Assembly (NCBI GenBank): GCA_025153775.1 | Contig: JAOALC010000001.1 | Location: 62,001 to 126,000 of the forward strand | Reading direction: 5' to 3' | Length of the DNA: 64,000 nt | DNA from: SAR92 clade bacterium H231 | GTDB taxonomy: Bacteria > Pseudomonadota > Gammaproteobacteria > Pseudomonadales > Porticoccaceae | Part shown: piece after piece, positions 7,191 through 22,458 of the stretch | Position numbering within the stretch: the stretch's first letter is position 1 | Layout: the number at the start of each line of letters is the position of its first letter | Program-made: the position numbers and the translations under genes | Notes under the pieces: generated by a model | Database searches by the model: none | The model's input: the letters and a program-made list of their open reading frames with translations, nothing else | What the model was told of the DNA's origin: nothing

Positions 7191-9653
7191 TTAGAAATTC
7201 ATGCGAGCCGTAAGCTGAACAGTTCGCGGTGGGTCAATCATCTTGAAATAAGAGCCATTGAATCCCTGAGGTCCCAGTGGAATGTCGTTACCCCACATAA
7301 AGGTATCTTCGCTAGTCAGATTTTTACCAATTACAGCGATCTGCCACTGATCGCCAGCAGCAATAGCGATGCGGGCGTTAAGCTTGCCGAAGCTGTGTTG
7401 GATCAGGTTCTCATCCAGGTCAGCGGAGACTATAACATCGTCGCTCCAGTTATAGTCTAAGCTTGCACTCAGGCGTAGGCCTGAAGACAGCTGAGTCCCA
7501 TAGTTGATGCCGACGTTTGCCGTGTACTCAGGAGCAAACTGCAGCGGCTGGCCGCTCAGGTCTTGAGTACATCCGCGACCTGCCACCAGCGTTTGCGCCA
7601 GATTACAACCAGCGCCTGGGAATGACTTGTAAGTCGCATCCAGATAAGCAAAGGCACCATTTAGGGTGATCTCTTCTGTCAAGCGGAACAGCACATCAGT
7701 CTCAATACCCTGCACTTCAGACTCAGCTGCGTTACCCACTACAAAGCCTGCGTTGCCATCAAAAGTAGACACCTGAACATCTTCATAGGTGCTCATATAT
7801 GCAGCGATATTAAGTCGACCACGACCATCCGCGAGATCAATTTTGGCGCCAAGTTCTACCGTTTCAACTGACTCATCTTCGAAATCTGCAAGATCATCGG
7901 TAATTCCAGCAACAGTTTCGACTTCACGGCCCAGGCCGTTGTCTTCGTCAAAGCCACCTGCTTTATAGCCGTTGCCGATTTCCAAATAGACCATGGCATC
8001 ATTATTCATATCCCACTGGAAATTAACATGGCCAGTGATATGGTCTTCTTCGCGCTGACGCGTGTAGCTATGAGCCGCGGCCAGATTTAAAGCGTTTTTA
8101 TACACTAAATTTAAGGCAGGAAGTGGCATTCTCGGAGTGTCTGTAACCTGATCTGCATATCCATTAGCCTGCAGCCAGTCGTTTAGATATCCAATTGTGG
8201 CACTTTTGGACATTTCTTTTTCGTCCTCCGAGTAACGCAAACCAGCGGTAATGCGGAAACTTTCGCTGACATGGAAAGTACCTTCGGCAAACACCGACCA
8301 GCTATCGGCATCCTGTTGGAAGGAATTCATGGCTGTGGCATCCAAAATGCCGTTGTGCGTAGCAGGGCTCAAATTGCCACCCAAAACTGCGGCTGCAAAA
8401 CTTGCGCCACCCAGATTCGGGTTTGGTGCGTTAAGCCGGCCAAATATACCACCCTGTACCGGCGCTACTGCGGATAGATCGACGTGGCTATAACGTTCGT
8501 TTGACAGCTCTTCGTTTTGATAAAAGGCACCAGTGAGATACTCGAACTTATCGTCGCTTGGCGAGCTAATAATAAACTCGGCACTAAGTTGCTCATGCTT
8601 TTCGTTGCGGCCACGATTAATAAGCTTCAGAGGACTGAAGTCTGAGTCCAGGCTGTTGTTAAACTCGTAGTCCGTGTACCCCATAACAGCTTTTATGCCG
8701 TGCTCACCAACGGCGCCATCAAACGTAACCTGAAAGATATTTGACTCATTGTCATCGTATATCGGCATATCGCGAACATTTTGGGTATAGCTTGTGTAGC
8801 CAAAGCCAGCTTCAAAATTGGTCGCGCCGAAAGGAGTGCCGTAGAGTGCAGCCGCTCCACCAGTCGCCAGGCTAGTGTCAGTCTGAGCAGTCAGTGCTTG
8901 GCGACCAATAACATCCATAAAGCCATGTTCAGCTTTTATTGTGGCAGTCCAATTTTCGTTGACATCAATGGCCAGCGTTGCTCGAGCATAGACGCTGTCT
9001 TTTTGTGGGCCATCTTCGCCATCGGCAGCGAGGTTGTTCACATAGCCCTTGTCTTCATAGGAACGCACAGCCAGACGGCCGCGAACTGAATTACTCAATG
9101 GGCCCGAGACCATAGCAGTTATCGTCTGTGCTTCTAGTTCACTGGTGTATCCTGCGCTAACGTAGCCTTGGAGCTCTTCGGTTGGCTGTGCAGTGGAGAT
9201 ATTAAGTGCTCCAGCAATGGTGTTTTTGCCGAACAGTGTCGATTGTGGGCCCTTAAGAACCTCGACACGCTCTAGATCAAGGAACTGACCTCTAGCACTG
9301 CGGCCACGACCAAAGTAAACACCATCTACAAAAGTGCCAACTGATTGTTCAAAACCATAGTTAACCCCTGAGCCAATACCGCGGATAAATATCTGGGTAC
9401 CAGTAGAGGCTTCGCCCATATGGACGTTAGGAATATATCTGCTTAGATCTTCCATCGAATTGATCGATTTATTCTCTATTTGCTGCCCATCGATGACCGA
9501 AATAGCGATGGGAACTTCTTGCAATCCCTCTGCGCGCTTGGTCGCGGTGACGATGATCTCCTCAAGTGTTAAATCTTGCGCCAGAGTCGGTGCACTTAAA
9601 GCCATGGTCAGCGTTGCCGCTGTAGTCCTTAAAAGCCTAGTTGAGTTTTTCAT
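7191..9653 (-). CDS. TonB-dependent outer-membrane receptor (catabolic island, receptor 1)
   Basis: This 820-residue precursor has a signal peptide ending near ALSAPTLAQ. A TonB-box/plug start follows (LEEIIVTATKRAEGLQEVPIAIS), then the plug segment with ERVEVLKGPQSTLFGKNTIAGA, and a 22-strand barrel ending in an aromatic residue (ARMNF). It belongs to the FecA-like/IroN-like group common in marine and sphingomonad-type catabolic clusters, where the cargo is often a hydrophobic or aromatic organic molecule rather than iron; the cargo here is unknown. The gene is divergent from an FAH-family hydrolase. The shared 276-base gap holds two copies of the TAGCC-N4-GGCTA operator, so it is probably induced with the catabolic genes. 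Confidence 0.92.
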   Translation of the reverse strand: MKNSTRLLRTTAATLTMALSAPTLAQDLTLEEIIVTATKRAEGLQEVPIAISVIDGQQIENKSINSMEDLSRYIPNVHMGEASTGTQIFIRGIGSGVNYGFEQSVGTFVDGVYFGRGRSARGQFLDLERVEVLKGPQSTLFGKNTIAGALNISTAQPTEELQGYVSAGYTSELEAQTITAMVSGPLSNSVRGRLAVRSYEDKGYVNNLAADGEDGPQKDSVYARATLAIDVNENWTATIKAEHGFMDVIGRQALTAQTDTSLATGGAAALYGTPFGATNFEAGFGYTSYTQNVRDMPIYDDNESNIFQVTFDGAVGEHGIKAVMGYTDYEFNNSLDSDFSPLKLINRGRNEKHEQLSAEFIISSPSDDKFEYLTGAFYQNEELSNERYSHVDLSAVAPVQGGIFGRLNAPNPNLGGASFAAAVLGGNLSPATHNGILDATAMNSFQQDADSWSVFAEGTFHVSESFRITAGLRYSEDEKEMSKSATIGYLNDWLQANGYADQVTDTPRMPLPALNLVYKNALNLAAAHSYTRQREEDHITGHVNFQWDMNNDAMVYLEIGNGYKAGGFDEDNGLGREVETVAGITDDLADFEDESVETVELGAKIDLADGRGRLNIAAYMSTYEDVQVSTFDGNAGFVVGNAAESEVQGIETDVLFRLTEEITLNGAFAYLDATYKSFPGAGCNLAQTLVAGRGCTQDLSGQPLQFAPEYTANVGINYGTQLSSGLRLSASLDYNWSDDVIVSADLDENLIQHSFGKLNARIAIAAGDQWQIAVIGKNLTSEDTFMWGNDIPLGPQGFNGSYFKMIDPPRTVQLTARMNF

Positions 9654-9778: not shown

Positions 9779-9792
9779 TAGCTAATTGGCTA
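9779..9792. promoter_or_regulatory. Palindromic operator, TAGCC-N4-GGCTA type (copy 1)
   Basis: The site reads TAGCTAATTGGCTA, one mismatch from the repeated TAGCC-N4-GGCTA palindrome. It lies 126 bases upstream of the receptor 1 start codon in the gap shared with the FAH-family gene. TAGAAT, a good -10 hexamer, begins at the operator's last TA on the plus strand. No convincing -35 was found on either strand, so the direction of the promoter is unclear. Confidence 0.6.
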
Positions 9793-9799
9793 GAATGTT

Positions 9800-9815
9800 A
9801 TGACTGCTCAGTCAT
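9800..9815. promoter_or_regulatory. Second palindrome type in the divergent promoter region
   Basis: ATGACT-GCTC-AGTCAT is a perfect 6+4+6 palindrome between the two TAGCC-type operators. A single copy was seen. It might bind another regulator or be chance. Confidence 0.3.
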
Positions 9816-9865
9816 GGGGCCCAAGGTGTTGCAATGGGATGATTGGCAACACTGTTTTAAACCGG

Positions 9866-9894
9866 TTGCTTTTGTTTAGCCGTATGGCTAATAT
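9866..9894 (+). promoter_or_regulatory. Promoter with embedded operator TAGCC-N4-GGCTA (copy 2) for the FAH-family gene
   Basis: A weak -35 TTGCTT (9866-9871) and -10 TAATAT (9889-9894) are 17 bases apart. The perfect palindrome TAGCCGTATGGCTA (9877-9890) fills the spacer and shares its final TA with the -10. A protein bound here would block RNA polymerase. The start codon of the FAH-family gene is at 9930. Confidence 0.6.
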
Positions 9895-9929
9895 TATCGC
9901 ATATTGATAATTTTATTGAGGTGGACTTT

Positions 9930-10856
9930 ATGGGGTTTAGGTTGGCAAATATCGGCGGCAGGGCGGCTCTGGTGTCCGGTGAGTCTTACTATGATCTGGA
10001 GAAAATAAGTCATGGTGATTTTTCACAGGACCCGATGGAAGCGCTTGAGGCGCTCTCAGAGCTATCTGCGCTCGACGCTCAATTAGAACATTTTGAGCCC
10101 AGTGGCCAGCTTGCGGATATCGAGCTTGGCCCCCCAGTGCCAAACCCCAAAAACTGTTATGCGGTGGGGCTTAATTATCGCAATCACGCCGAAGAATCGA
10201 ATATGGCGATCCCCCCGGTGCCGATGGTGTTTACTAAGCATTCCTCGTGCATAAGTGGTCCCACTGCCGATATTGAAATGCGCAGTGATTATGTTGATTA
10301 CGAAGCCGAGCTAGTTGCAGTTATCGGCAAGCCCGGCAAGGACATTCGTCGAGACGATGCTTGGCAACATGTGGCCGGTCTCTGTGTGGGGCAGGATATT
10401 TCTGATCGTCCGATGCAGTTTAGCGCGGCTCCGCCACAGTTTAATCTAGGTAAATCCTTTGATACCTTCGGCCCCATAGGTCCGGTATTGACTTCGCTGG
10501 AGTCCTTAGACGATTACCATTCTATGGAAATACGCTGTGACGTAAGTGGGCAGCTGCGGCAGAGTGACAATGTCGATGATCTAATTTTCGATATTCCTTT
10601 TATAATTGCCTATCTGTCTGAAATTGTGACCTTAAATACCGGAGATGTGATTTTCACCGGAACGCCAGCCGGTGTTGGTGTTATCGATGGCAAATATCTG
10701 CGCGATGGCGAAATACTAACCACCAGCATTGAGGGGCTCGGAACCCTGCGTAATCGCTGTGTGAGGGTGGCTGACCATTCTCGCGCAGATATCGTACCCG
10801 AGGCTTTTTCTAAGCTGGTGGCTGCAGCCCGTGAAAAGGCCGCGGCACATCAGTAA
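9930..10856 (+). CDS. Fumarylacetoacetate hydrolase (FAH) family protein
   Basis: The 308-residue protein carries the FAH C-terminal domain: GLNYRNHAEE, FTKHSSCISGP, the metal-binding acidic stretch DYEAELVAVIGKPG, and TGDVIFTGTPAGVG near the end. Family members use Mg2+/Mn2+ to hydrolyse C-C bonds of acylpyruvates or to hydrate/decarboxylate ring-fission products of aromatic pathways. The ATG at 9930 is preferred over an in-frame GTG nine bases earlier because GAGGTGG sits at the right distance. Its divergent partner is a TonB receptor, and its promoter carries the repeated TAGCC operator. In this island it could process the product of the extradiol dioxygenase at 20.6 kb; that link is inference. 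Confidence 0.88.
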   Translation: MGFRLANIGGRAALVSGESYYDLEKISHGDFSQDPMEALEALSELSALDAQLEHFEPSGQLADIELGPPVPNPKNCYAVGLNYRNHAEESNMAIPPVPMVFTKHSSCISGPTADIEMRSDYVDYEAELVAVIGKPGKDIRRDDAWQHVAGLCVGQDISDRPMQFSAAPPQFNLGKSFDTFGPIGPVLTSLESLDDYHSMEIRCDVSGQLRQSDNVDDLIFDIPFIIAYLSEIVTLNTGDVIFTGTPAGVGVIDGKYLRDGEILTTSIEGLGTLRNRCVRVADHSRADIVPEAFSKLVAAAREKAAAHQ

Positions 10857-10884
10857 ACCTCTGTATTGTTGATGGTTGTCGAGT

Positions 10885-11745
10885 CTAAATGCCGGTGACC
10901 TTTTCCAGGGTTGTATTGGTTATTGCTTGATAGGTCTGGGTCAGAAAGCGGATAACTTTTAGGGGAAGCGGATCTGCCACCTCTTTTGCAATTTCGGGGC
11001 GATAGAGCAGGGACTGGTACCAGGCTTCCAGACCCGGGTGTAAGCGCTTGAAGGGGTAGCCGGTTGATTTTAGGCGGTGAGCGTAAATAAACCAGACTAT
11101 ATCGATGATAGTGATTCTATCACCCAATAGAAATTCTTGATTGGCAAGCTGCGCTTCCAATGATGTAAATTTTCGTTTAAATCTCTCTACTGAGTTGGTG
11201 GCCTGTTCTGGGGTAATACCCTGTTTTGCCAGATCGCGCCAAAAGGCAAGCTGCACCTGTTTATGACTGTCTTTTTTCCCCTCTACAGTGCCTTCGCTGG
11301 ATGCTAGTGTATCAAGAGCCTCTGGCGGTTTGCCGATCAAAAATTTCGGCAGGGAGAAGCCAAAGGTCAATGTCCGCAGATCGAGGTGCAAATCATTCTC
11401 GGCGTTGAGTTGCTCTAAAACAGATTCCCTCTGCTGGGCAGGAATTAATTTTGGGGTCTCGAATCGATCATCGAGGTAGCTGACAATATCATTGCTCTCG
11501 ATATGTACTTCGCCGTCATGTATCAGTGCCGGAATAAGCCCGCGAGGATTAATACCAAGATACCATTCGCTGTAGTTTTTAGCTTTTAATAAATTGATCG
11601 GGTGTGACACCCAGTCAACGCCTTTGAGATTGAGCACGATACGCGCTTTTTGAGAGCATGAGGAGCTGCTGAAATGAAAGAGATGTAATCCCTTCCATTC
11701 TGTGACTTCCTTGGTTTTGATGTCTTTGGAGTATAGTTTAACCAT
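10885..11745 (-). CDS. Glutathione S-transferase family protein (GST 1)
   Basis: This is a 286-residue protein with an N-terminal thioredoxin-like domain (HLFHFSSSSCSQKARIVLNLKG; NPRGLIPALIHDG with the cis-proline; ESNDIVSYLDD) and an all-helical C-terminal domain (LLGDRITIIDIVWFIYAHRL). The ATG at 11745 has GGAG about 11 bases upstream; an in-frame start 45 bases earlier lacks one. It is longer than ordinary GSTs, in the size range of LigE/LigF beta-etherases, but nothing specific to those can be claimed. It lies convergent to the FAH-family gene within the island. No TAGCC operator lies in its 160-base upstream gap, so its regulation may differ. Roles could be isomerisation or glutathione-dependent cleavage of a pathway intermediate. 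Confidence 0.85.
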   Translation of the reverse strand: MVKLYSKDIKTKEVTEWKGLHLFHFSSSSCSQKARIVLNLKGVDWVSHPINLLKAKNYSEWYLGINPRGLIPALIHDGEVHIESNDIVSYLDDRFETPKLIPAQQRESVLEQLNAENDLHLDLRTLTFGFSLPKFLIGKPPEALDTLASSEGTVEGKKDSHKQVQLAFWRDLAKQGITPEQATNSVERFKRKFTSLEAQLANQEFLLGDRITIIDIVWFIYAHRLKSTGYPFKRLHPGLEAWYQSLLYRPEIAKEVADPLPLKVIRFLTQTYQAITNTTLEKVTGI

Positions 11746-11906
11746 ATTAGTAGTCGCTCCTAATGTCTCTCTGTAACCCCAGAGTAACAAGCAGTAATAT
11801 TATCGCTGCTGTTACCACTGTAAGCATTGGATTCCAGCCGTTGAGCAGCGAGGGAACGCCGCACTGTCTGTCGGCTAGCCCACTCTTGTTTTAGGCTGAA
11901 TATTGG

Positions 11907-13415
11907 TTAGTTCTTATTTTTGGCATTTTCAATGGCGGCTTCAGCCCAGGGTATACGATCTTCAGGGCCCCCAAAGGTATCCATATCAAATAGAATTTCC
12001 ATAATCTCGACGCCTCGCTCTTCACCGGCGGGCCAATTTGCAATGATTTTCTGCATCTCGGTAACGCGCTCGGGATACTGAGCTGATAGATCGATGCTTT
12101 CAGTGGGATCGGTGAATACGTTGTAGAGTTCCAACCTATCGCCAGTAATTAACTTCCATGGCGGTTGATACAGAGAGGTATTGTCAAAGCCGGTGACTAA
12201 ATAGTCTGGTTTTCTGGTTATCTCGCCCTTGGATAGCGAACGCCATTGAGATGCGCCATCAATATCGTCTGGGATGTCGTCGGAGCCGCCAACGGCGTCT
12301 AGCAAGGTTGGCAGTACATCCGAGACAGAGATAAATTCATTATGGGTGCCTGGGTTGATCTGATTGGGCCACCAGAGAAGGGCGGGCACTCGCACACCGC
12401 CCTCTAAAGTGCTTGTTTTGGTCCCGCGCAGAGTTCCATTGTCGCTGCCGCCGTCATAGGAGAATTTGGCAAATTCCTCGAGGGTGCTAAATGGTACTGG
12501 CCGATCAAAAAAGAATGTCCCTAGGTCGGCAAGCTTTCTTAATGTGGATGCAAGTTCCGCTTCGCCGCCTATTAACCCACCGTTGTCGCTGGCAAACAGT
12601 ATTAGAGTGTTGTCGAGCATATCGCGTTTTTTAAGCGCCTCGATAACACGGCCAATTTGATGATCTAATTCCGACACCATGGCCGCATGGACACGCCTAT
12701 TGGGATTGCTGATCTGACTGTATTTATTGATGCCCGCCTGTGGTGCCTGGTTGGGCATATGGGGTGCGGCCATCGCCAGATAGAGAAACAACGGCTGCTG
12801 TGATTGGTACTCTTCGATTAGGTGAACGGCTTCATCGCCCAACAGATGAGTTGCATAACCCTCTTCGCGAACGGTTCTGCCGTTGCGCTGCCAGTCATGC
12901 CCGCCACCATGGTTGTGATCCCAGTAGCCAATACCACCACTTAGAAAACCATAAAAGTGCTCAAAGCCCCTTGCCGGGGGCGCATAGGCGGGGATGTAGT
13001 TACCCAGATGCCATTTGCCGACCATCAGACTTTGATAACCCAGAGCATTGAGGTACTGAGGCAGAATTTGCTCATCCAGGTCCAGACCAAGTTGCTGATT
13101 TTTAGCAATAGCCCTGCTGATGCCTAACTTTCTAGGAGATTTGCCTGTCATCAAGGCGGCTCTGGTAGGGCTACAGGTAGGCTGAGCATAAAAACGGTCA
13201 AGCTCAAGTCCCTCGGCAGCAAGACGGTCAATATTGGGCGTATTAATTTCGCTACCATGGTAGCCGACATCATTCCAACCTAGGTCATCAGCTAATATCA
13301 TTACAATATTAGGTCTTGGGGGGTTGGCTTCAACGGCATAGGCCGAGCCATAAATGTTGAGTAGTAGAGCTGCGACAAGCCCCATAGACTGGAAACTGAA
13401 TTTTAAAATTTGCAT
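11907..13415 (-). CDS. Secreted sulfatase (type I, formylglycine-dependent)
   Basis: This 502-residue sulfatase of the alkaline-phosphatase superfamily has a signal peptide ending near residue 27 (GSAYA), so it probably acts in the periplasm. The metal-binding aspartates D43-D44 lie in ILADDLGWNDVGYHG. The activation motif C81-S-P-T-R85 has the cysteine that anaerobic or FGE-type enzymes convert to formylglycine, and ALMTGKSP follows. It removes sulfate esters; the substrate may be an aryl or sugar sulfate. In this setting a sulfated phenolic or algal compound is plausible, but that is inference. No sulfatase-maturing enzyme is in the window. Its promoter holds a 28-base perfect palindrome containing the TAGCC operator. 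Confidence 0.93.
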   Translation of the reverse strand: MQILKFSFQSMGLVAALLLNIYGSAYAVEANPPRPNIVMILADDLGWNDVGYHGSEINTPNIDRLAAEGLELDRFYAQPTCSPTRAALMTGKSPRKLGISRAIAKNQQLGLDLDEQILPQYLNALGYQSLMVGKWHLGNYIPAYAPPARGFEHFYGFLSGGIGYWDHNHGGGHDWQRNGRTVREEGYATHLLGDEAVHLIEEYQSQQPLFLYLAMAAPHMPNQAPQAGINKYSQISNPNRRVHAAMVSELDHQIGRVIEALKKRDMLDNTLILFASDNGGLIGGEAELASTLRKLADLGTFFFDRPVPFSTLEEFAKFSYDGGSDNGTLRGTKTSTLEGGVRVPALLWWPNQINPGTHNEFISVSDVLPTLLDAVGGSDDIPDDIDGASQWRSLSKGEITRKPDYLVTGFDNTSLYQPPWKLITGDRLELYNVFTDPTESIDLSAQYPERVTEMQKIIANWPAGEERGVEIMEILFDMDTFGGPEDRIPWAEAAIENAKNKN

Positions 13416-13442
13416 GATGTGGGCCGACTGGTTTTTATTAGA

Positions 13443-13473
13443 ACTATTTTAGCCGATAGGCTAAAATAGTCAA
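13443..13473 (-). promoter_or_regulatory. Sulfatase promoter with long palindromic operator (copy 3)
   Basis: On the minus strand TTGACT (-35, plus positions 13468-13473) and TAAAAT (-10, 13446-13451) are 16 bases apart. The operator TAGCCGATAGGCTA (13450-13463) fills the spacer. It lies within a perfect 28-base palindrome (13443-13470) with 12-base arms around GATA, the most symmetric copy of the set. The sulfatase start codon is at 13415, about 30 bases from the -10. Confidence 0.75.
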
Positions 13474-13563
13474 TCACATGTTTGAAGGTCTACCTATTTA
13501 TCAGGATGGTATTACTCAGAGCCACTCAGATTCCCTTGCTTGCATAAAAACACATATCTATTC

Positions 13564-13577
13564 TAGCCGTCAGGCTA
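13564..13577. promoter_or_regulatory. Operator TAGCC-N4-GGCTA (copy 4), distal
   Basis: TAGCCGTCAGGCTA is a perfect copy about 150 bases upstream of the sulfatase. On the minus strand a -10-like TAGAAT begins at the operator's last TA, but the -35 is poor. It may mark a second upstream sulfatase promoter or an auxiliary repressor site. Confidence 0.6.
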
Positions 13578-13727
13578 ATTTGTTGGGCGTGAGTTTCTCC
13601 CCTGCTGGGCATTAGTTTTCTTGAATAGCGCTATTTCAGTGTAACTTTGCGAGCATCAAAAATGTTGGGGCTACCAGTGTCGAATGACTTTATGGATGAT
13701 TTTGTTTAACAGCAGGCAGTAATAGGC

Positions 13728-15308
13728 CTAGGTTAGCTGAATTTTTAATTGATCAATCAGCTTGCCCAGCTGGTCTTTTAAACTCTCAGAGCTGTCTGTA
13801 TAACAGAGCCCATAAATCTGCCTGTCCGGCCTCAGTAGGGCTAATGCAACGTTATTATCTTCGGCCCAGCGCTGCAGTAGGCCCTCTTTATCGATACCCT
13901 GACCCTGGTCTCCCAGATGAAAACCGGCTAAAGGTGCCTGTAAGAAATCGGTATTTTGTTGGCTGAGCAATGGGCCGGGGTCGGTATTAAATCCAACAAC
14001 TGAAAATTCATCATCGAGCAGGCTATCTAGTAGAACGCAATCGCCATTACTTAGGGTGACCATACTTTGACGCAGCATGTAGCGATCGAGTGAGTGTGGA
14101 TCCTGAGCAAAAATACCATCCCCGAGCCGCCACTGCTGACCAAATTTAATCGAGGATACAAGTACCGGAATTAACCGTCCGAGCATCAGAAATAGGTCAC
14201 GGGCCAATGCTTTTAGGGGATTGCGCGTTTGAATAATATCGCCATGGGTAATAGCCAGCTTAATCACTTCCTCTACATGGGGCCGCCGTTCACTATGATA
14301 GCTATCGAGAATCCTAGCATCCCATTGGCCGCTTAATACGCCAGCAAGCTTCCAGTTTAGATTGTATGCATCCCGTATACCCGAGCAGAGTCCCTGACCT
14401 AGAAATGGAGGCATTTGATGAGCGGCATCACCGAGCAAAAAGACTCTTCCTTTTTTAAATTGATCTGCCAGCAGGGCATGGAAGCGATAAACTTTTGCCC
14501 GAATAAGACTGCCATCTCGCTCGTTAAGCTGACTGTTAAGTCGACCAATATGGGGGGCCATCAGAGCGCGAACATTATCTTCATTTTCAACATCCCCATG
14601 GTCATCTGTATCATTAAGCATAAACTCCCAGCGTATATGGCCTGGTTCGCAGGGAATAAGTGATGTAGGCCGAGTTGGGTCGCAAATCTGATAGGCCTCA
14701 TCTTTGATCTGGATACTTTTATCCAGAATCAGATCACAGACTAGCCAGGGTTCGTCGCAGCCCAAATCCTGCAGCCCAAAGCCGCCCAATTCTCTTGTGC
14801 TGCTTGAAGCTCCGTCACAGCCTAGCAGGTACGAGCATTGGACATGTTGCGACTCTGTACCATTGATATCGGTGATCTTTAGGGTTACTCCAGAGCTGTC
14901 CTCATGGAGTTCTTCGAGCTGCCAGCCAAGAAATTGATCAACTGAATCGCAATCGTCGACAGTTTCTCGAAGATATTTTTCGAGTTGGGGCTGGGAAAAA
15001 AACGTACTGTTGGCCCAGTAGTGAACTCTGTCAGATTCCGACAGATCCTGATGAAGAAGCGTCCAGTTAAAGCCATTGAGGAATGAAATAAATCCAAGCT
15101 CGCGACCGGCTTCCTTGATTCTTTCATGCAGCCCTTGGGATTGAAAAATTCGCATGACCTCGCCATCGTAATGAACCGCTCGAGGAATTTCATAGATATC
15201 CATATTAGGCTCTACTACTAATGTATTTATGCCTTGCTTACCTAGCAAAGAAGCCATCATTGCGCCGGTGGGTCCATAGCCAATAATTGCAACATCGTAA
15301 CTTTTCAT
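13728..15308 (-). CDS. FAD-dependent aromatic hydroxylase (MhpA/PheA-like)
   Basis: This 526-residue class A flavoprotein monooxygenase starts with the Rossmann fingerprint DVAIIGYGPTGAMMASLLGKQG. It has the DG motif (LLGCDGASSSTR) near residue 165 and the second FAD motif GDAAHQMPPFLGQG near residue 295, followed by a C-terminal thioredoxin-like region. Relatives hydroxylate phenols, phenylpropionates or resorcinol-like rings with NAD(P)H and O2, giving catechols for ring cleavage. The ATG at 15308 begins directly at the FAD fold; upstream in-frame ATGs would run through the operator and promoter. The promoter holds a TAGCC operator. It may supply substrate to the extradiol dioxygenase at 20.6 kb. 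Confidence 0.9.
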   Translation of the reverse strand: MKSYDVAIIGYGPTGAMMASLLGKQGINTLVVEPNMDIYEIPRAVHYDGEVMRIFQSQGLHERIKEAGRELGFISFLNGFNWTLLHQDLSESDRVHYWANSTFFSQPQLEKYLRETVDDCDSVDQFLGWQLEELHEDSSGVTLKITDINGTESQHVQCSYLLGCDGASSSTRELGGFGLQDLGCDEPWLVCDLILDKSIQIKDEAYQICDPTRPTSLIPCEPGHIRWEFMLNDTDDHGDVENEDNVRALMAPHIGRLNSQLNERDGSLIRAKVYRFHALLADQFKKGRVFLLGDAAHQMPPFLGQGLCSGIRDAYNLNWKLAGVLSGQWDARILDSYHSERRPHVEEVIKLAITHGDIIQTRNPLKALARDLFLMLGRLIPVLVSSIKFGQQWRLGDGIFAQDPHSLDRYMLRQSMVTLSNGDCVLLDSLLDDEFSVVGFNTDPGPLLSQQNTDFLQAPLAGFHLGDQGQGIDKEGLLQRWAEDNNVALALLRPDRQIYGLCYTDSSESLKDQLGKLIDQLKIQLT

Positions 15309-15342
15309 GTTTTGGAGCCTTACGCGGACAAATTTTAAGCGC

Positions 15343-15370
15343 ATATTAGCCATTTGGCTATTTTTGTCAA
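15343..15370 (-). promoter_or_regulatory. Flavin hydroxylase promoter with operator (copy 5)
   Basis: On the minus strand a perfect -35 TTGACA (plus positions 15365-15370) and -10 TAATAT (15343-15348) are separated by 16 bases. The palindrome TAGCCATTTGGCTA (15347-15360) sits in the spacer and overlaps the start of the -10. The start codon is at 15308. Confidence 0.75.
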
Positions 15371-15468
15371 GAAAGGGATTGGCGAAAACCAAACAAAGTT
15401 TTACTCGGACTGTTTGTTGGTACTAATTAGTCCTGTGACTGGTGAAAAAAAATCAATGATTAACTTCC

Positions 15469-15497
15469 TTGACATAAACTAGCCGAATGGCTAACGT
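15469..15497 (+). promoter_or_regulatory. MmsA-like dehydrogenase promoter with operator (copy 6)
   Basis: A perfect -35 TTGACA (15469-15474) is followed after 17 bases by a weak -10 TAACGT (15492-15497). The palindrome TAGCCGAATGGCTA (15480-15493) fills the spacer. The predicted leader to the ATG at 15674 is about 170 bases. Confidence 0.65.
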
Positions 15498-15673
15498 GCT
15501 GAACCTAGGCTTTATAATGAAAGACTTCAGATTAATTTAAGGTGTTTCGTAGAGTTCAATAACGCAGCCAAAGCCCTGCAGAATAGGGTTTGGATACTGC
15601 ATTAGATATGACAGGACGCCGTTGATAGGTTTTCACTACAGCTTTAATCGGAATAGAGGAAGGTGAGTTTTTT

Positions 15674-17152
15674 ATGATTAATCATTTTATAAATGGGGCA
15701 GCAGTTGCAGAGGGGGGTTATCCATCAGATCTTTTTAATCCATCAAATGGCAGCAAAATTGGTACTGTCTTAAACGGTGGTGCCGATGAGCTGGATTTGG
15801 CCGTACAGGCTGCCCATATAGCTTTTCAATCTTGGTCAATCACAGGCTTGGGTTACAGAGCAAATGTACTTTTAGCCTGCCGTCAGCAGGTTATGGACCA
15901 TCGCGACGAGCTAATTGAAATTTGCGTGGTCGAAGCGGGCAAGACATTTGCGGATGCTGCTGCTGAGGTTGATAAAGGTATTGAGGGACTTGCCTATGCT
16001 GCCAGTGTTGGCAGCTGGTTGCGCTCCGCGACAACACAAAACGTTTCGTCGGGAATTGATGTTGTTGACGCTCGCTACCCAATTGGAGTTGTCACTACAG
16101 TCAGTCCATTTAATTTCCCCGTTATGATCCCATTGGTGCAATGCGCAATGGCAATTGCATGCGGCAACACTGTTGTTGCGAAACCAAGCGAAAAAGTCCC
16201 CTCAGCCTTTCGTTTAATCGCTGAGCTTATGCACAGAGCTGGCTTGCCCAGTGGCGTTTTAAATGTGGTGAACGGTGGTCGCGAAGTAGTTGAGTCCATG
16301 ATCGAGCACCCCAGTGTGGCCGGATTAAGCTTTGTTGGCAGCACGCCAGTGGCCAAACACTTAAGGATTAGGGGCATTGAGAACGATAAGAGAGTCCAGG
16401 CATTTGGCAGTGGTAAAAATCATATGATTGTACTACCTGATGCGGAATTGGATATGGCTGCAGATGCGGCAGTATCAGCCGCCTTCGGTGCGGCAGGTCA
16501 GCGTTGTATGGCAATCTCGGTCGTCGTCGCTGTGGGTGATATCGGCGATCAGTTGGTGACTAAAATTGCTCAGCGTATTCCCGATATTGTCGTCGGTTCA
16601 ACGGCAGATGCCGCTGTTCAGCTGGGCCCGGTGATTAGTCCCGAAAGCAAGCAGCGGATTCATGGCTTTATCGAAGGCGTAGAGTCCTCCGGTGCGTCAC
16701 TCATCATCGATGGACGTCTGCAGGACGATCAAGACGGATGGCTAGTAGGTGCTAGTCTTGTCGATCATGTAAAGCCTGGCATGCCAGTCTACGATCAAGA
16801 AGTGTTTGGGCCGGTACTCTGTGTTGTTAGAGCGTCAACGTACAAAGAGGCAATGGACATAGTGGCAAGTCATCCGTTGGGTAATGGCGCCGCTATATTT
16901 ACCCGCGATGGTGGCGCTGCCAAGCGTTATGCAGATGATATACAGGCGGGAATGGTTGGCATCAATGTGCCTATACCTGTGCCACCTTGGAGCCATAGTT
17001 TTGGCGGCTGGAAGGCTAGTGCGTTTACTGATAGCAAAATTAGCGGCCCCGAGTCTCTGAATTTTCACACTCGAATTAAAGCGATTATCAGCCGCTGGCC
17101 AGATCCGGCAGAAAGTAAAGTCGATCTGGGTTTTTTAAAGACCGATCGCTAG
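15674..17152 (+). CDS. CoA-acylating (methyl)malonate-semialdehyde dehydrogenase-like enzyme
   Basis: This 492-residue aldehyde dehydrogenase is of the MmsA type. The catalytic cysteine is C278 in GAAGQRCMAIS, the family signature, and TVSPFNFPVMIPL and PSEKVPSAFRL follow the MmsA pattern. Near the C-terminus the family signature appears as MVGINVPIPVPPWSHSFGGWKAS. MmsA enzymes oxidise methylmalonate or malonate semialdehyde to propionyl- or acetyl-CoA with NAD+ and CoA, releasing CO2. In the island it could handle a C3/C4 semialdehyde released late in a ring-cleavage route. The RutE-like protein at 21.7 kb belongs to a family acting on malonate semialdehyde, which is suggestive but not proof. 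Its promoter carries the TAGCC operator. Confidence 0.88.
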   Translation: MINHFINGAAVAEGGYPSDLFNPSNGSKIGTVLNGGADELDLAVQAAHIAFQSWSITGLGYRANVLLACRQQVMDHRDELIEICVVEAGKTFADAAAEVDKGIEGLAYAASVGSWLRSATTQNVSSGIDVVDARYPIGVVTTVSPFNFPVMIPLVQCAMAIACGNTVVAKPSEKVPSAFRLIAELMHRAGLPSGVLNVVNGGREVVESMIEHPSVAGLSFVGSTPVAKHLRIRGIENDKRVQAFGSGKNHMIVLPDAELDMAADAAVSAAFGAAGQRCMAISVVVAVGDIGDQLVTKIAQRIPDIVVGSTADAAVQLGPVISPESKQRIHGFIEGVESSGASLIIDGRLQDDQDGWLVGASLVDHVKPGMPVYDQEVFGPVLCVVRASTYKEAMDIVASHPLGNGAAIFTRDGGAAKRYADDIQAGMVGINVPIPVPPWSHSFGGWKASAFTDSKISGPESLNFHTRIKAIISRWPDPAESKVDLGFLKTDR

Positions 17153-17211
17153 GAGGTCAAGGCAACTGCCGCACTGATAACAGTTGCCATCACCAAATAT
17201 CGATGTTAAAT

Positions 17212-17225
17212 TAGCCAAATGGCTA
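17212..17225. promoter_or_regulatory. Operator TAGCC-N4-GGCTA (copy 7)
   Basis: TAGCCAAATGGCTA is a perfect copy, one base from copy 8, giving a 15-base centre-to-centre tandem upstream of receptor 2. Confidence 0.7.
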
Positions 17226-17226
17226 T

Positions 17227-17240
17227 TAGCCATGTGGCTA
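17227..17240. promoter_or_regulatory. Operator TAGCC-N4-GGCTA (copy 8) with -10 of receptor 2
   Basis: TAGCCATGTGGCTA is followed by TATATT (17239-17244), a good -10 that begins with the operator's last TA as at the other sites. The -35 would fall inside copy 7. The receptor start codon is at 17291. Confidence 0.7.
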
Positions 17241-17290
17241 TATTGCAGATAAATAAAAATATTGAAAAGCCAATACCTGAGGGGAGTAGC

Positions 17291-19555
17291 ATGAGAAAAA
17301 AACTAATTATTAGCGCTATCGGCGCACAGCTGATTATGATGCAGGGGCTCCAGGCTGAGACCCTTGCTCTTGAGGAAGTAATAGTAACCGCAGAGAAAAG
17401 AGAGCAGAGCTTGCAGGACGTGCCAGCCTCAATCTCAGCGTTCTCAGCATCTCAGATTGAGAACGCTGGATGGGATGATATATCCCAGCTTGAAACCAGT
17501 ATCCCCAGCGTATCCATGGGTGGTGATGGTGATTCACGACCCTTTATTTTTATCCGAGGCGTAGGCTCTCGCAAGTTTGACCTCGGCTCCGAAGGCTCGG
17601 TTGGTGTGTTTGTTGATGAAATCTACAATGCTCGCTTTTCGTCGGCTCTCTCGGGTATTGTCGATATTGAGCGCATCGAAGTACTGAAGGGCCCTCAGGG
17701 CACATTGTACGGGCGCAATACCATCGGTGGTGCGGTATCACTCTATACGGTCAAACCAACGGATGAATTTGAAGCGCGGATTAAAGTGGCCGCTGGTTCA
17801 GATGGCTATAGCCGTGTGGGTGGATTTGTATCTGGCGCACTCTCGGAAAATTGGGTCGGCCGTTTAGCTGCCTCGACGCGTTCGGACGACGGCAATATGA
17901 CAGAGGTTCTGTCTGGGAAAAATGACGGTCAAGACGCCGATGCTGTTCGACTTAACCTGATAGGTCAGTTATCTGACAAGACCAGCCTCGAATTCACTGC
18001 GCAGAGTACTAAGCTTGATCAAAATGGCAGGCTCGCTCAGGCCAACGGTGAAATGGGGCCATTTGGTCTTTACCAGTTGGGCCATGCTCTGCCGCTGCCC
18101 GTTCTGCCCGCACCTTTGCGAGCCAATATTATGGCCGGAATACAGGCTGGAACTGTAGCCGGTATTCTGCGTGAAGCTGCTCTTGATCCACGCAATGTAA
18201 AGATGGATCGTCCCGGATTTTCCTCTCTTGAGACAGATCTAGTTTCTCTTAAGCTCGAGCATGAATCTGATAATTTCTTGTTTACATCGATTACCAGCCG
18301 CACCAGTGACGAACTGCATGAAGAGACTGATTTTGAATCAACCACTCGGGATGCCATTTGGACTGATGTTATTCAGGACAGTCGACAAACAAGTCAGGAA
18401 TTTCGGTTTACGTCAGTTGATGGTGGCATGGGAACTATGGATGATCGACTAACCTGGGTGATTGGTCTGTACTACTTCAATGATAAAGGCTACAGGAAAG
18501 ATGACTACTCTGTTGAAGAGCAGGGCAATATTCCGCCTCAGTTCTATCAGGCTGCCAGCGTAGATTTTAGTCAGTCGCGTCAGGACTTGACTCTCGATAA
18601 TAAGAGCTTTGCTCTGTATGGACAGGCGACCTATGCGCTGACAGATCAACTCAATGTCACACTTGGTATTCGACGCAGTGAAGATGAAAAAGATGTGATC
18701 ACGCAGATGATCACCAACACACCAGGTTATCCATTTGTTGCAGCACCTTTTAGCCTTCCTCAGACGCTGGAATACAGCTCTACTGATCCCAAGCTAAGTA
18801 TTGACTATGCGATCAATGACAACTCAATGGCCTATATTACGTACGCCAGTGGCTATAAAAGTGGCGGCGCCCAATTTGCGAGTTGGGCCGAGGCGGGGAA
18901 TGTTAATGGCTTCGAAAAAGAGCAGCTGGACTCTCTGGAAATTGGCTATAAAGCACGTCTGATGAATGATCGCCTGCAATTGAATGTGGCGGCCTATCGC
19001 TATGATTATACAGATCAGCAAGTACAAACCATTGTCGTGATTAATGGCGCGCCATCTGGTTTGACGAGCAATGCTGCCGAGAGTGAGATGGATGGTTTTG
19101 AACTCGAGATGAATTATCTGCTGACCAGCGCATTGAGAGTTGACTTTAACTACTTCAACCAGGATGCAGTGTTTGGCAGTTTTGAGGATGTAAGTGGCTC
19201 TAAGACGGGCAATCCAATGCAGTTCGCCCCGGAGAATGCCTACACGGTGGCGTTAAATTATGCGCCCGACACTGCAATTGATCTTCAATTACGCGCTGAA
19301 TACAGCTACAAGGACGAATTTCAGTTTGATGCGGGCAACCGTGCCATCTCGCTGGAGCCTGAGCACAGTGTTGTCAATTTAACGGCCTCAATGAATCTCA
19401 ATGATTCAACGTCGCTGCGCCTGTACTGTGACAACTGTTCCGATGAGCTAATCCGCACTCAGGTGACTACCTTTGCTACTACACAGGGTGGTGGTGGACG
19501 CAGCATCTATGGTCCTGGTCGCCGCGTTGGGGCCGAGATTAGCTATAATTTTTAA
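17291..19555 (+). CDS. TonB-dependent outer-membrane receptor (catabolic island, receptor 2)
   Basis: The precursor has 754 residues: signal peptide (MRKKLIISAIGAQLIMMQGLQA), TonB box/plug (LEEVIVTAEKREQSLQDVPASIS), IERIEVLKGPQGTLYGRNTIGG, and a barrel ending in EISYNF. It belongs to the same broad group as receptor 1 but is clearly a distinct sequence, so the two may import different members of a substrate class. The ATG at 17291 has GGGGAG 5 bases upstream; an earlier in-frame ATG at 17219 would place the tandem operators inside the coding region, so it is rejected. A strong terminator follows. Confidence 0.92.
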   Translation: MRKKLIISAIGAQLIMMQGLQAETLALEEVIVTAEKREQSLQDVPASISAFSASQIENAGWDDISQLETSIPSVSMGGDGDSRPFIFIRGVGSRKFDLGSEGSVGVFVDEIYNARFSSALSGIVDIERIEVLKGPQGTLYGRNTIGGAVSLYTVKPTDEFEARIKVAAGSDGYSRVGGFVSGALSENWVGRLAASTRSDDGNMTEVLSGKNDGQDADAVRLNLIGQLSDKTSLEFTAQSTKLDQNGRLAQANGEMGPFGLYQLGHALPLPVLPAPLRANIMAGIQAGTVAGILREAALDPRNVKMDRPGFSSLETDLVSLKLEHESDNFLFTSITSRTSDELHEETDFESTTRDAIWTDVIQDSRQTSQEFRFTSVDGGMGTMDDRLTWVIGLYYFNDKGYRKDDYSVEEQGNIPPQFYQAASVDFSQSRQDLTLDNKSFALYGQATYALTDQLNVTLGIRRSEDEKDVITQMITNTPGYPFVAAPFSLPQTLEYSSTDPKLSIDYAINDNSMAYITYASGYKSGGAQFASWAEAGNVNGFEKEQLDSLEIGYKARLMNDRLQLNVAAYRYDYTDQQVQTIVVINGAPSGLTSNAAESEMDGFELEMNYLLTSALRVDFNYFNQDAVFGSFEDVSGSKTGNPMQFAPENAYTVALNYAPDTAIDLQLRAEYSYKDEFQFDAGNRAISLEPEHSVVNLTASMNLNDSTSLRLYCDNCSDELIRTQVTTFATTQGGGGRSIYGPGRRVGAEISYNF

Positions 19556-19709: not shown

Positions 19710-20582
19710 ATGGCGATTAAATATACTAAAGAATTTGAACTTTATAGCTACGGTGAGTCCTTAGCTTCTCAAACTGCCAGAGTAGGTCTTGCAGAAAAAG
19801 GCATTGACTACAAGCAACATCGCGTCGGTCTTGAATCTACTGGTGAACATTTGCAAAAAGCCTATAAGGCAATTAATCCCGCGTCATTGGTTCCGACCCT
19901 GGTACACAATGGTGAACCGATCTATGACAGTGTAAAGATTCTTGACTATCTAGATTCTTTTGCGCCCAAACAGGGTGCCACTTTATTTCCTGCGGACGGT
20001 GAAAAAAATGCTCAGGTTCGAGCGCTAGTCAAAGAGTTTTCTCTCGATGAAACTGTTGGGATCGGTGAGAATTTTGGCACATGTATGGCGGGCCTCAGTA
20101 CTCAGATGCTCGCTTATCTACTCTGTAAGCGTCCTTTTTGGACCGTCGTTTGGGACTATCTGACCAAGCATCCTTCGAGAGACCGGGTGCCCATCTTTAT
20201 TTTAATTCGTCTGTTGGGAAAGCCGCCTGGATTTAAATATAGAGAATTCGTTAGCGGGGTTGCCAGGGGAATAATCTTTATTGAGAAGACATTGTCCCAT
20301 GGCGGGCCCTTTATCGCCGGCGAGTATTCCGCCGCTGATGTGTTACTTGCACAGGGCTTTCACCGACTGGAGATAACCGCCTTCCATAAAGTACTCGAGT
20401 CGGATCAGTTTCCAAATATTAAACAGTACTGGCCAAGACTGCAGCAGCGAGAAAGTTATAAAGCAGGAATCCTCGACTATGAAGAAGACGAGTGGACTGA
20501 ATGTAAGGCTGCTTTATATGGGGAGGGAGAAAACCCAGATATCGAGTATTTTTGGTCAGAGGTTAAAAAGTTTAACCAATAA
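19710..20582 (+). CDS. Glutathione S-transferase family protein (GST 2)
   Basis: The protein has 290 residues with an N-terminal thioredoxin-like domain (ELYSYGESLASQTARVGLAE; NPASLVPTLVHNG with the cis-proline; YDSVKILDYLD) and a helical C-terminal domain (GPFIAGEYSAADVLLAQGFHRLE). It is only distantly similar to GST 1. It is the first gene of a likely three-gene operon: the extradiol dioxygenase starts 49 bases later and the nitroreductase after that. GSTs next to extradiol dioxygenases occur in biphenyl, lignin and naphthalene routes as isomerases, dehalogenases or ether-cleaving enzymes; which applies here cannot be told. Confidence 0.85.
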   Translation: MAIKYTKEFELYSYGESLASQTARVGLAEKGIDYKQHRVGLESTGEHLQKAYKAINPASLVPTLVHNGEPIYDSVKILDYLDSFAPKQGATLFPADGEKNAQVRALVKEFSLDETVGIGENFGTCMAGLSTQMLAYLLCKRPFWTVVWDYLTKHPSRDRVPIFILIRLLGKPPGFKYREFVSGVARGIIFIEKTLSHGGPFIAGEYSAADVLLAQGFHRLEITAFHKVLESDQFPNIKQYWPRLQQRESYKAGILDYEEDEWTECKAALYGEGENPDIEYFWSEVKKFNQ

Positions 20583-20631: not shown

Positions 20632-21714
20632 ATGAGTGAGCCGATTTGTAAAGTTGCAGATATTATTTTTGTACGTTTTGAACTTGTGGATCTGGAACCA
20701 CAAAAAGAGTACATGGAACATTTTGGCATGATACTGGCGCACGAAACGGAAGACGCGATTTTCTATCGCGGCACAGGTACAGCACCCTATTGTTACGTAG
20801 CCACAAAAGGCCAGAGCAACCGCTTTATTGGTACCGCTTATCGGGCCAATGCACTCTCTGACCTCGAGGCATTGGCCGCCGCAAAGGGAGTTAGTATCGT
20901 CGCTAATACCGAGCCTGGTGGTGGCCACAAGGTAACGCTTATCGACCCGGATAATATTGAGATTGAAGTCTATTACGGTTTGCAACCGTCTGAGCCCATA
21001 TCGATTAATCCAATTATGCTTAATACGGGTGTCGATAAGCCTAGGGAAAATACTCTGCAGCGCTTTGGTCGGGGTTCCGATGAGTGGCAGTTGCACGACA
21101 ACCGTTGGGTGTATGAGCTGACCTCTAAGGTAAAGCGGCTGGGGCACACCGCTATCAATGTAGCGGACGCCGCAATATCCGTTGATTGGTATGCCAATAC
21201 ACTGGGCTTTTTGATCAGTGATAATCTGCTTGCTCCAGATGGTCCTCATTCTATCGGTGCCTTTATGCGCTGTGATCAGGGTGATGTGCCTGTCGATCAT
21301 CACACGTTGAATAACGTGCAGTTTTTAGGTGAGCCAAAGCCTGCATTTGGGCATGCTGGCTTTGAGGTAACTGACTCAGTGGATGATCTGATGGCCGGTC
21401 ACTACCATATGAAAACCGTCGATAAGTATTACCATGAATGGGGTATTGGACGTCACCTATTGGGTAGTCAAATGTACGACTATTGGCGTGACCCCAGTGG
21501 CTTTACCCATGAGCATTGGACTGATGGTGATCTTCTCAATGCATCTATCCCTGCCACGGATACGCCGGCCAGGGATTTGATTATGGCTCAATACGGGCCC
21601 GAAGCTCCCGCCTCTTTTGGCGCTACCATGCCCAGTGAAGAGGTCGATGATTTTAGAGCAGCAACCCCGAGCTTGACGGATATAGTCAAGATGATGGAAC
21701 AGCAACCAAAATAA
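20632..21714 (+). CDS. Two-domain VOC extradiol ring-cleavage dioxygenase
   Basis: This 360-residue type I extradiol dioxygenase has a degenerate N-terminal VOC module (residues ~5-120) and a catalytic C-terminal module (~168-310). The iron ligands are H172 (RLGHTAIN), H241 (FGHAGFEV) and E294 (THEHW), spaced as in BphC/XylE. A likely acid-base His at 223/224 (VDHHTLNN) and Tyr284, ten residues before the Glu, complete the active site, so the enzyme should be active. It would open a catechol-like ring next to the hydroxyls with Fe(II) and O2. The region between the modules (residues 121-167) is long and has few features. An AAAAGGA-type ribosome site precedes the ATG. Confidence 0.88.
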   Translation: MSEPICKVADIIFVRFELVDLEPQKEYMEHFGMILAHETEDAIFYRGTGTAPYCYVATKGQSNRFIGTAYRANALSDLEALAAAKGVSIVANTEPGGGHKVTLIDPDNIEIEVYYGLQPSEPISINPIMLNTGVDKPRENTLQRFGRGSDEWQLHDNRWVYELTSKVKRLGHTAINVADAAISVDWYANTLGFLISDNLLAPDGPHSIGAFMRCDQGDVPVDHHTLNNVQFLGEPKPAFGHAGFEVTDSVDDLMAGHYHMKTVDKYYHEWGIGRHLLGSQMYDYWRDPSGFTHEHWTDGDLLNASIPATDTPARDLIMAQYGPEAPASFGATMPSEEVDDFRAATPSLTDIVKMMEQQPK

Positions 21715-21726
21715 GTGAGATTCGAT

Positions 21727-22458
21727 ATGAGTTGTTCAAACAAGCAATCAATTTCTGCTCAGGAACTTGCGGCTGCCTCAGGTATGCAGCGCCGGCTCCA
21801 TGGTGGAGATAATGTGCAGTCCGACCATGTGTTGGCAGCACAAAATACATTTAGTGAGATGAAAAAACGTTACACGGCATTAAGTGATGATCACCTCGAT
21901 TTACTGTTCAGAGAACCGAGGACACAGTACGCTTGGCAGGATAAGGAGGTTAGCGAAGACCTATTAAGAACGCTGTATGATCTGACCAAAATGACATCTA
22001 CTAGCGTCAACTCTTGTCCAGGACGGTTTGTTTTTCTGCGCTCAGAAGAGAGCAAAGAGCGACTCAGACCGACATTAACAGGTAATAATGTTGAGAAGAT
22101 AATGGGAGCTCCCGTGGTTACGATTATTGCCCATGACAATGCTTTCTACGAGCGACTGGACCAACTCGCTCCCTACGCCGACCTCAAACCGATGTTTGTC
22201 GACAAGCCGGCCTATTGCGAAGCTACAGCGTTTCGAAATGGCACCTTGCAAGGTGCTCAGTTGATGATGGCCGCGCGTGCGCTGGGGCTCGACTGTGGTC
22301 CTATGTCGGGTTTTAACAATCAGCTGGTTGACGAGGAATTTTTTGCGGGTACCACAGTGGTTTCAAATTTTCTATGCTGCCTGGGTTATGGCGATCCGAG
22401 TCGTATTTTCCAGAGGCTTCCTCGTCTCGAGTTTAACGAGGCCTGTGAGTTTTTATAG
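21727..22458 (+). CDS. Nitroreductase-family flavoprotein, RutE-like
   Basis: This 243-residue FMN-dependent enzyme is of the malonic-semialdehyde-reductase (RutE/HadB) subgroup: LFREPRTQYAWQDKEVSEDLL, STSVNSCPGRFVFLRS and ALGLDCGPMSGFNN. RutE reduces malonic semialdehyde to 3-hydroxypropionate with NADH. The ATG at 21727 is chosen because GTGAGA lies upstream and the family N-terminus fits; an in-frame GTG 12 bases earlier is less likely. It begins 12 bases after the dioxygenase stop, so the genes are cotranscribed. In this context it may reduce a semialdehyde or enone from ring cleavage; whether malonic semialdehyde is the substrate is open. Confidence 0.85.
   Translation: MSCSNKQSISAQELAAASGMQRRLHGGDNVQSDHVLAAQNTFSEMKKRYTALSDDHLDLLFREPRTQYAWQDKEVSEDLLRTLYDLTKMTSTSVNSCPGRFVFLRSEESKERLRPTLTGNNVEKIMGAPVVTIIAHDNAFYERLDQLAPYADLKPMFVDKPAYCEATAFRNGTLQGAQLMMAARALGLDCGPMSGFNNQLVDEEFFAGTTVVSNFLCCLGYGDPSRIFQRLPRLEFNEACEFL

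Follow-up and report, generated by a model that had tools for sequence, protein, structure and literature searches.

TAGCC-N4-GGCTA, a candidate TetR operator in a putative aromatic catabolic cluster of the SAR92 clade

A palindrome, TAGCC-N4-GGCTA, recurs in a gene cluster of SAR92 clade bacterium H231, and we conclude that it is very probably the operator of TetR_A, a proposed TetR-family repressor encoded in the same cluster (22597..23175, plus strand), which would bind each palindrome as a dimer and thereby block transcription of the cluster. The stretch analysed, referred to as the window, comprises 64,000 nucleotides of contig JAOALC010000001.1 (positions 62,001 to 126,000; NCBI GenBank assembly GCA_025153775.1), and coordinates without a prefix refer to it. 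We show the sites, their clustering, conservation and promoter register, their co-occurrence with TetR_A and their presence before the TetR_A gene of two relatives; that TetR_A binds them and represses instead of activating is inferred, as are the ligand, the operons, the order of the pathway and its substrate. An original prediction, made from the letters of the window alone, had linked eight sites to receptors, a sulfatase, a hydroxylase and a dehydrogenase; the evidence collected here supports a regulon that is wider than this and that recurs in two marine lineages.

Operator sites and their promoters

Seven perfect copies of the palindrome start at positions 9877, 13450, 13564, 15347, 15480, 17212 and 17227 and an eighth copy with a single mismatch starts at 9779, exactly as predicted. 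When every 5-base half-site was ranked with spacers of 0 to 20 across the 64-kb window, TAGCC with a spacer of four came first with seven copies; the runners-up have three copies each, and one of them, AGCCA with a 2-base spacer, is a sub-match of the same sites. The base composition of the window leads to an expectation of 0.007 perfect copies in 7.5 kb and of 2.7 per genome. The whole genome (2,931,580 bases on 7 contigs) contains ten perfect copies, seven of which lie in the cluster, and two copies of the reversed control pattern; the genome scan that had been proposed with the prediction thus found the motif not to be similarly dense elsewhere. None of the three perfect copies outside the cluster is promoter-like: L008 lies in a convergent gap between infA-like and clpA-like genes, L009 within the first codons of an oadB-like open reading frame (ORF) and L010 in the arms of a 26-bp inverted repeat, the gene names having been read from translations by eye. 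The stretch around the L010 repeat (L010:1380-1680) contains repeated blocks, which may be tRNA-associated.

With one mismatch allowed, the genome holds 131 sites compared to 76 for the control. On its own, a copy with one mismatch, such as that at 9779, is therefore weak evidence, and the frequency of such copies is also what could be said for a chance cluster of a short palindrome. This explanation was rejected and retains a negligible probability, since seven perfect copies in 7.5 kb contrast with the 0.007 expected and the sites are conserved in relatives. A genome-wide search for additional regulon members using promoter-register patterns with up to two mismatches returned eight matches outside of the cluster and nine for the reversed controls; two of the outside matches, C1:751413 and C4:222109, were dismissed as regulon members, the former being located inside an ORF and the latter being an inverted repeat.

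Three of the sites are embedded between recognizable promoter elements. The sulfatase-promoter operator (13450..13463, minus strand) lies between TTGACT and TAAAAT and the hydroxylase-promoter operator (15347..15360, minus strand) between TTGACA and TAATAT, both with a spacer of 16, and the operator of the MmsA-like dehydrogenase promoter (15480..15493, plus strand) follows TTGACA and is succeeded by a poor -10 element, TAACGT; at this site, the automatically chosen best promoter lay elsewhere with 9/12, which is a tie. The operator upstream of the FAH-family hydrolase gene (9877..9890, plus strand) is preceded by TTGCTT 11 bases before it and followed by TAATAT from base +12, and here too the automatic best promoter lies elsewhere. 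Two tandem operators occupy the promoter of TonB2, the first of which (17212..17225, plus strand) is located just after the probable -10 element and the second (17227..17240, plus strand) 15 bp further on. The two remaining sites lack a TTGA[CT] element in register: the distal sulfatase operator (13564..13577, minus strand), a possible auxiliary site, and the one-mismatch copy TAGCTAATTGGCTA (9779..9792) upstream of TonB1, a weak site whose letters are identical in SAR92 strain H921.

The assignment of all sites to promoter regions stands with a correction of gene starts. The sites at 15347 and 17212/17227 overlap the longest ORF calls; however, ATG 17291 for TonB2 and ATG 15308 on the minus strand for the hydroxylase are the likelier starts, and the sites are therefore upstream of these genes. 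The four central bases, which were said to differ at each site, do so on the plus strand; however, 15347 and 17212 are an identical 14-mer on opposite strands, and the centre is not fully free, since the base adjoining TAGCC is a purine in 12 of the 14 half-sites that the perfect copies provide.

The same register is found in the clusters of relatives described below. At all 14 hydroxylase, MmsA and proximal sulfatase sites, a class that was grouped by ourselves and in which L055:970 counts as a sulfatase site though the sulfatase itself is off that contig, TTGA[CT] starts 10 or 11 bases upstream of the palindrome and a TAnnnT -10 element follows from base +12, some of these being poor, as at 15480. 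The loci L065 and L056 belong to the same contig and were drawn on for different sites. FAH sites carry TTGC at the corresponding position. Overall, TTGA[CT] is in register at 15 of 35 cluster sites, from which H921 was excluded as a near-duplicate, compared to 2 of 32 control sites, or fairly 2 of 31, as the control set includes L047, the H921 FAH site. The members of a tandem pair are spaced 15 bp apart in all seven loci that possess one, and in six of them, L054 being the exception, the automatic best promoter has its -35 element at -28 and its -10 element at -5 or -6.

Thus, a TetR_A dimer would fill the spacer between the -35 and -10 elements of the sulfatase, hydroxylase and MmsA promoters, and probably of the FAH promoter, and would cover two palindromes just after the -10 element of the TonB2 promoter. 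Because of these positions, bound TetR_A would block RNA polymerase. Some TetR-family proteins activate, and TetR_A might bind the sites as an activator or act both ways; the distal sulfatase site at 13564 and the TonB1 site, which are out of promoter register, would be compatible with such a role. We regard it as improbable, as a dimer bound in the spacer of the hydroxylase, MmsA and sulfatase promoters should exclude polymerase. It is very unlikely that the inverted repeats act as RNA hairpins, that is terminators or leader structures, instead of protein-binding DNA: at the hydroxylase, MmsA and sulfatase promoters, the site is placed between the -35 and -10 elements and would therefore not be transcribed from its own promoter. 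A 5-bp stem with a 4-base loop could nevertheless form, several of the changes seen in SAR86 are compatible with G-U pairs, the non-cluster copy L010 lies within its 26-bp inverted repeat and the TonB2 pair may be partly transcribed.

TetR_A as the candidate repressor

TetR_A contains the TetR_N helix-turn-helix domain PF00440 at residues 22-68 (E 3.7e-16; 59.1 bits versus a cut-off of 24). Its AlphaFold model, based on 18 sequences, consists of helices only and has a mean pLDDT of 84.9, and among its 836 PDB matches, the 50 listed represent regulators, mostly titled as TetR family, with modest TM-scores of 0.36-0.65. TetR_A scores below the cut-offs of the equivalogs for KstR (NF033703; 20.4 bits, cut-off 280), BetI (TIGR03384; 47 bits, cut-off 201.3) and RefZ (NF037937; 52.5 bits, cut-off 180).

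Within a sample of 112 genomes of the family, seven carry the hydroxylase at E 1e-60 or better, namely G000 (the window genome), G022, G037, G051, G099, G101 and G103, of which G037 is strain H921, whose cluster is a near-duplicate of that in the window. A profile search with TetR_A found matches in nine of the 112 genomes, which are all seven hydroxylase carriers as well as G044 and G057. In G044 (L094:6152-6604), the TetR_A-like gene is cut by the contig end, and the genome may hold a cluster unseen. G057 (L095:8745-9188) encodes a remnant of 148 residues that has lost most of the DNA-binding domain; no other cluster gene is present in the 16 kb read, and the remnant was probably left after loss of the cluster. 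A second, degenerate TetR_A-like copy with stops is found in G099 (L096:8927-9331) on a contig other than that of the cluster. At the level of the order, TetR_A was detected at E 1e-30 in 1 of 390 genomes, the window's own, in a sample that evidently lacks the other six genomes with the cluster.

The TetR_A gene is directly preceded by a perfect site in G099 and G103. Among the window genes matched in the clusters of both the SAR92 and the SAR86 lineages, TetR_A is the sole DNA-binding product. The original prediction had named the protein encoded at 22597-23175 as a putative binder, and this proposal is supported by its ortholog in each of the seven hydroxylase genomes and by the site upstream of the gene in two of them. 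It had also considered the N4 layout of the half-sites to fit a TetR-type regulator; the regulator type is supported by these orthologs and by a relative in 12 of 12 SAR86-type loci, but the layout alone does not identify a family.

A second TetR gene, TetR_B (25323-25991), is located 2 kb beyond TetR_A, and the palindrome might be the operator of this protein or of an unlinked regulator, with TetR_A controlling something else. The window's TetR_A gene lacks a site directly before it, and the unmatched ORFs in the relatives' clusters are annotated in part (10 proteins scanned), both of which would fit such an arrangement. However, no TetR_B homolog was seen in the H921 stretch L053, in which the two left neighbours of TetR_B are found, nor in the 12 SAR86-type loci, whereas TetR_A or its relative accompanies the hydroxylase throughout both sets and is preceded by sites in G099 and G103. 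Control by another regulator thus has a low probability, although it is slightly less remote than activation by TetR_A, and TetR_B, which is not seen with the relatives' clusters, was judged an unlikely regulator.

Conservation in SAR92 relatives and a drifted form in SAR86

The sites recur at the corresponding promoters of the orthologous clusters of six further family genomes. Genome-wide, G000, G022, G037, G051, G099, G101 and G103 contain 10, 6, 9, 6, 8, 2 and 5 perfect sites, compared to a mean of 1.5 in the other 105 family genomes (p about 3e-5); within the cluster stretches, the window has 7 and the other six genomes, in the same order, have 5, 7, 4, 7, 1 and 4. In G051, a tandem pair with one mismatched copy precedes GST2, with no TonB2 seen between, and G101 has no tandem pair. 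A further pair of TonB2 sites was found on the contig L066, which is labelled Luminiphilus. The putative operator is, on this evidence, part of a regulon that travels with its genes. That the sites define one regulon, as predicted, agrees with the clustering of seven of the ten perfect genome copies and with their recurrence in relatives; the inclusion of TonB1, however, is doubtful.

The window and H921 share a block of at least 37 kb (window 3796-23294 versus L052; L113 versus L112). Their DNA identity is 93.9% up to 22.5 kb, 87% over TetR_A up to 23.3 kb and 69-73% thereafter, and to the left the block extends at least to C1:47.8 kb, where the H921 stretch begins, with 81-99% per kb. According to the available text of a study of SAR92 isolates, their genome-wide identity amounts to 71.7-74.2% (PMC10746254). 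As the identity of the block, which includes TetR_A, is above these values, the block looks as if it has recently been exchanged. Just after TetR_A, H921 carries a second TonB1-like receptor stretch (L052:19682-20000, L053:22-2093) with about 71-75% DNA identity to TonB1 of the window.

A scan with the dioxygenase returned 23 loci, and 12 of these (L069-L080), 11 named SAR86 and one Gammaproteobacteria MED-G141, share the gene set. All 12 encode an FAH protein, a TonB receptor, a GST, the dioxygenase, a nitroreductase, a sulfatase, the hydroxylase and a relative of TetR_A, and MmsA is found in ten, the stretches of the remaining two stopping at contig ends. The exact palindrome TAGCC-N4-GGCTA occurs in none of the 12 loci. 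Instead, ten of them contain TA(G/A)(C/T)C-N4-G(G/A)(C/T)TA, mostly with CA-NN-TG centres and chiefly in the FAH/TonB, GST and hydroxylase/MmsA gaps, and L070 and L079 contain a looser palindrome ending in GGATA. The TetR proteins of these loci, 11 of which were aligned and compared in their helix-turn-helix (L072 was left out), share 32-36% of their residues with TetR_A along the alignment. Their recognition helix is nearly the same, with VNHGQIHHYFG in 7/7 SAR92-type proteins and VNHAQIHHYFG in 10/11 SAR86-type proteins, L074 retaining the G; elsewhere in the helix-turn-helix, SNRD or SNRE of the seven SAR92-type proteins is replaced by TIRD or SIRD in the 11 SAR86-type proteins. The G-to-A exchange was discarded as the sole cause of the changed operator because L074 keeps the G and has a T-type site. 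In four more distant dioxygenase loci (L081-L084), no operator was found with the pattern TA(G/A)(C/T)CA-NN-TG(G/A)(C/T)TA. One of these, L082 (6182-11068; Rhodobiaceae FE80, alphaproteobacterial), combines relatives of the hydroxylase, FAH, GST and dioxygenase on one contig without the operator and possibly represents a related pathway under other control.

In G101 (L057:10786) and G103 (L058:10695), a single site forms the centre of a promoter that is symmetric on both strands, TTGAC...TAGCC....GGCTA...GTCAA. Of 33 SAR86-type sites, 14 show an in-register TTGA[CT] on one or both sides, and three of these, from three loci, show it on both. In the window, the hydroxylase and MmsA promoters are separate, with site starts 133 bp apart, and no symmetric promoter is present. 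It is tempting to speculate that in some SAR86 and in two SAR92 relatives, one TetR dimer at the dyad of the symmetric promoter switches the divergent hydroxylase and MmsA-like genes together, that the window lineage may have split this unit into two operator-bearing promoters, that a hitherto undescribed route for sulfated aromatics, shared by two common groups of marine bacteria, is under the control of the regulon, and that the operator drifted along with helix-turn-helix residues of the TetR protein. Taken as a whole, this combined scenario is tentative, and we give it a little less than an even chance of being correct.

Several observations weigh against TetR_A acting on the palindrome as a conserved operator. 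Twenty of the 35 cluster sites lack an in-register TTGA[CT], namely the TonB2 pairs, the FAH sites with their TTGC, the TonB1, distal sulfatase and TetR-promoter sites and the GST2 site of G101, and in 19 of 45 rows the automatic best promoter agreed with the register. The cluster of G101 contains a single perfect site. Four genomes without the hydroxylase (G032, G041, G056 and G093) contain 5-7 perfect sites, and the 11.9 kb of the Luminiphilus-labelled contig L066 contain no TetR_A despite the sites. The 138-bp gap that precedes TetR_A in the window (22458-22597) is free of palindromes, and the gene may therefore be read from a TonB2-GST2-dioxygenase-nitroreductase operon. Two results in favour of the operator carry reservations. 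In the hydroxylase-MmsA gap, all 20 half-site columns, those of the sites at 15347 and 15480, are invariant in four genomes compared to 94 of 365 other columns, but these genomes are nearer to three because H921 is near-identical to the window. The drifted palindrome occurs 19 times in about 30 kb of intergenic DNA and 4 times in 208 kb of coding DNA (shuffles: mean 0.4, maximum 3), but it shares second place among 2,560 comparable half-site patterns, with A/T-rich patterns equal to it or ahead of it, and the mutual relatedness of the SAR86-type loci weakens such counts. Regarding repeats, three perfect copies at steps of about 193 bp in G032 (C47:13031-13431), which lacks the hydroxylase, are perhaps a repeat array.

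Cluster genes and comparison with known systems

Gene assignments were made with Pfam and NCBIfam profiles at curated cut-offs and with PDB relatives; that of TetR_A draws on its TetR_N domain, its orthologs and its TetR fold. NCBIfam models identify the FAD-dependent aromatic hydroxylase of the MhpA-like subfamily (13728..15308, minus strand; NF004829 above cut-off), the MmsA-like CoA-acylating semialdehyde dehydrogenase (15674..17152, plus strand; TIGR01722 above cut-off) and the nitroreductase-family oxidoreductase (21715..22458, plus strand; NF003768 above cut-off, with IstO as a relative). The sulfatase (11907..13415, minus strand) was recognized by PF00884 and its PDB relatives, and a CSPTR motif was read from the translation. 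The FAH-family hydrolase (9921..10856, plus strand; PF01557), for which ATG 9930 is the likelier start, has PDB relatives that include HpcE and maleylpyruvate hydrolase. The VOC-fold protein (20632..21714, plus strand; PF00903) is probably a ring-cleaving extradiol-type dioxygenase, with an HpaD-like match below the cut-off and a weak PDB relative. GST1 (10885..11790, minus strand; Pfam) is encoded downstream of the sulfatase and in the same direction, and the N-terminal domain of GST2 (19710..20582, plus strand) is nearest to maleylacetoacetate isomerase in the PDB. Two genes encode TonB-dependent receptors with NCBIfam similarity below the cut-offs, TonB2 (17291..19555, plus strand) and TonB1 (7191..9653, minus strand), the latter being a doubtful member of the regulon; in G022, TonB1 is not adjacent to FAH. 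As judged from operon layout, both GSTs, the dioxygenase and the nitroreductase probably belong to the regulon as well, and perhaps the TetR_A gene itself. A plasmid link was not upheld: seven records had short matches, and of the five listed, four are annotated as methylmalonate-semialdehyde dehydrogenase and one is unannotated.

The cluster genes look built for the breakdown of sulfated aromatic compounds by a putative pathway. An aromatic ligand, or an intermediate derived from it, would release TetR_A and switch the cluster on. The induced route would start with uptake via TonB2 and removal of the sulfate group by the sulfatase, followed by hydroxylation, ring opening by the VOC dioxygenase, isomerisation by a GST, hydrolysis by FAH and oxidation of the semialdehyde by the MmsA-like enzyme. 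In this way, previously unlinked 'aromatic degradation' genes of SAR92 and SAR86 become one defined regulon with a candidate repressor and mapped sites. The cluster is carried by H921, a SAR92 isolate available in culture, so that growth and reporter experiments can be used to look for the inducer, which would in turn indicate the natural substrate. In SAR86, the drifted site and its TetR relative furthermore constitute a natural experiment in TetR operator specificity.

A local catabolic regulon under TetR control is a known kind of system; no description of this particular one and no mention of the exact pattern TAGCC-N4-GGCTA were found in the literature searched, which is not proof of absence. 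KstR and KstR2 of actinobacteria are TetR-family regulators with a short palindromic operator and a catabolic-pathway regulon, but their operator and lineage are unlike those of TetR_A, and in a comparison of structures, only the DNA-binding region matches. NicR2 (PDB 5fgl/5fhp) shares the TetR fold and, according to the entry titles, regulates the catabolism of an aromatic heterocycle, nicotine; its identity to TetR_A is 13-14% and the fold match is weak (TM about 0.5). The closest described arrangement that was found, as far as the available text of its description goes, is that of EdcR from the alphaproteobacterium Caenibius tardaugens. EdcR is the estrogen-dependent TetR repressor of the edc cluster, and the available text describes a TetR-type repressor whose gene lies inside a local cluster for aromatic/steroid catabolism that has several promoters and includes a TonB receptor, and whose palindrome overlaps promoter elements, as proposed here for TetR_A (PMC8700777). 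However, the EdcR operator TnnCnnTACnAnTnGTAnnGnnA is unrelated to TAGCC-N4-GGCTA, the enzymes differ, and the EdcR palindrome is described as overlapping the -10 element (PMC8700777), whereas that of the window fills the spacer. For SAR86, catechol dioxygenases, nitroreductases, arylsulfatases and GSTs have been reported in a study whose main text contains no TetR and which, in the part available, does not present them as a single regulon sharing an operator (PMC11582366). Finally, bidirectional promoters of E. coli are pseudo-symmetric and drive divergent transcription, their control being called unknown in the available text (PMC12825309). The predicted symmetric promoters of G101, G103 and the three SAR86-type loci resemble them; compared to what is described there, they add -35-like elements together with a putative repressor palindrome at the dyad.

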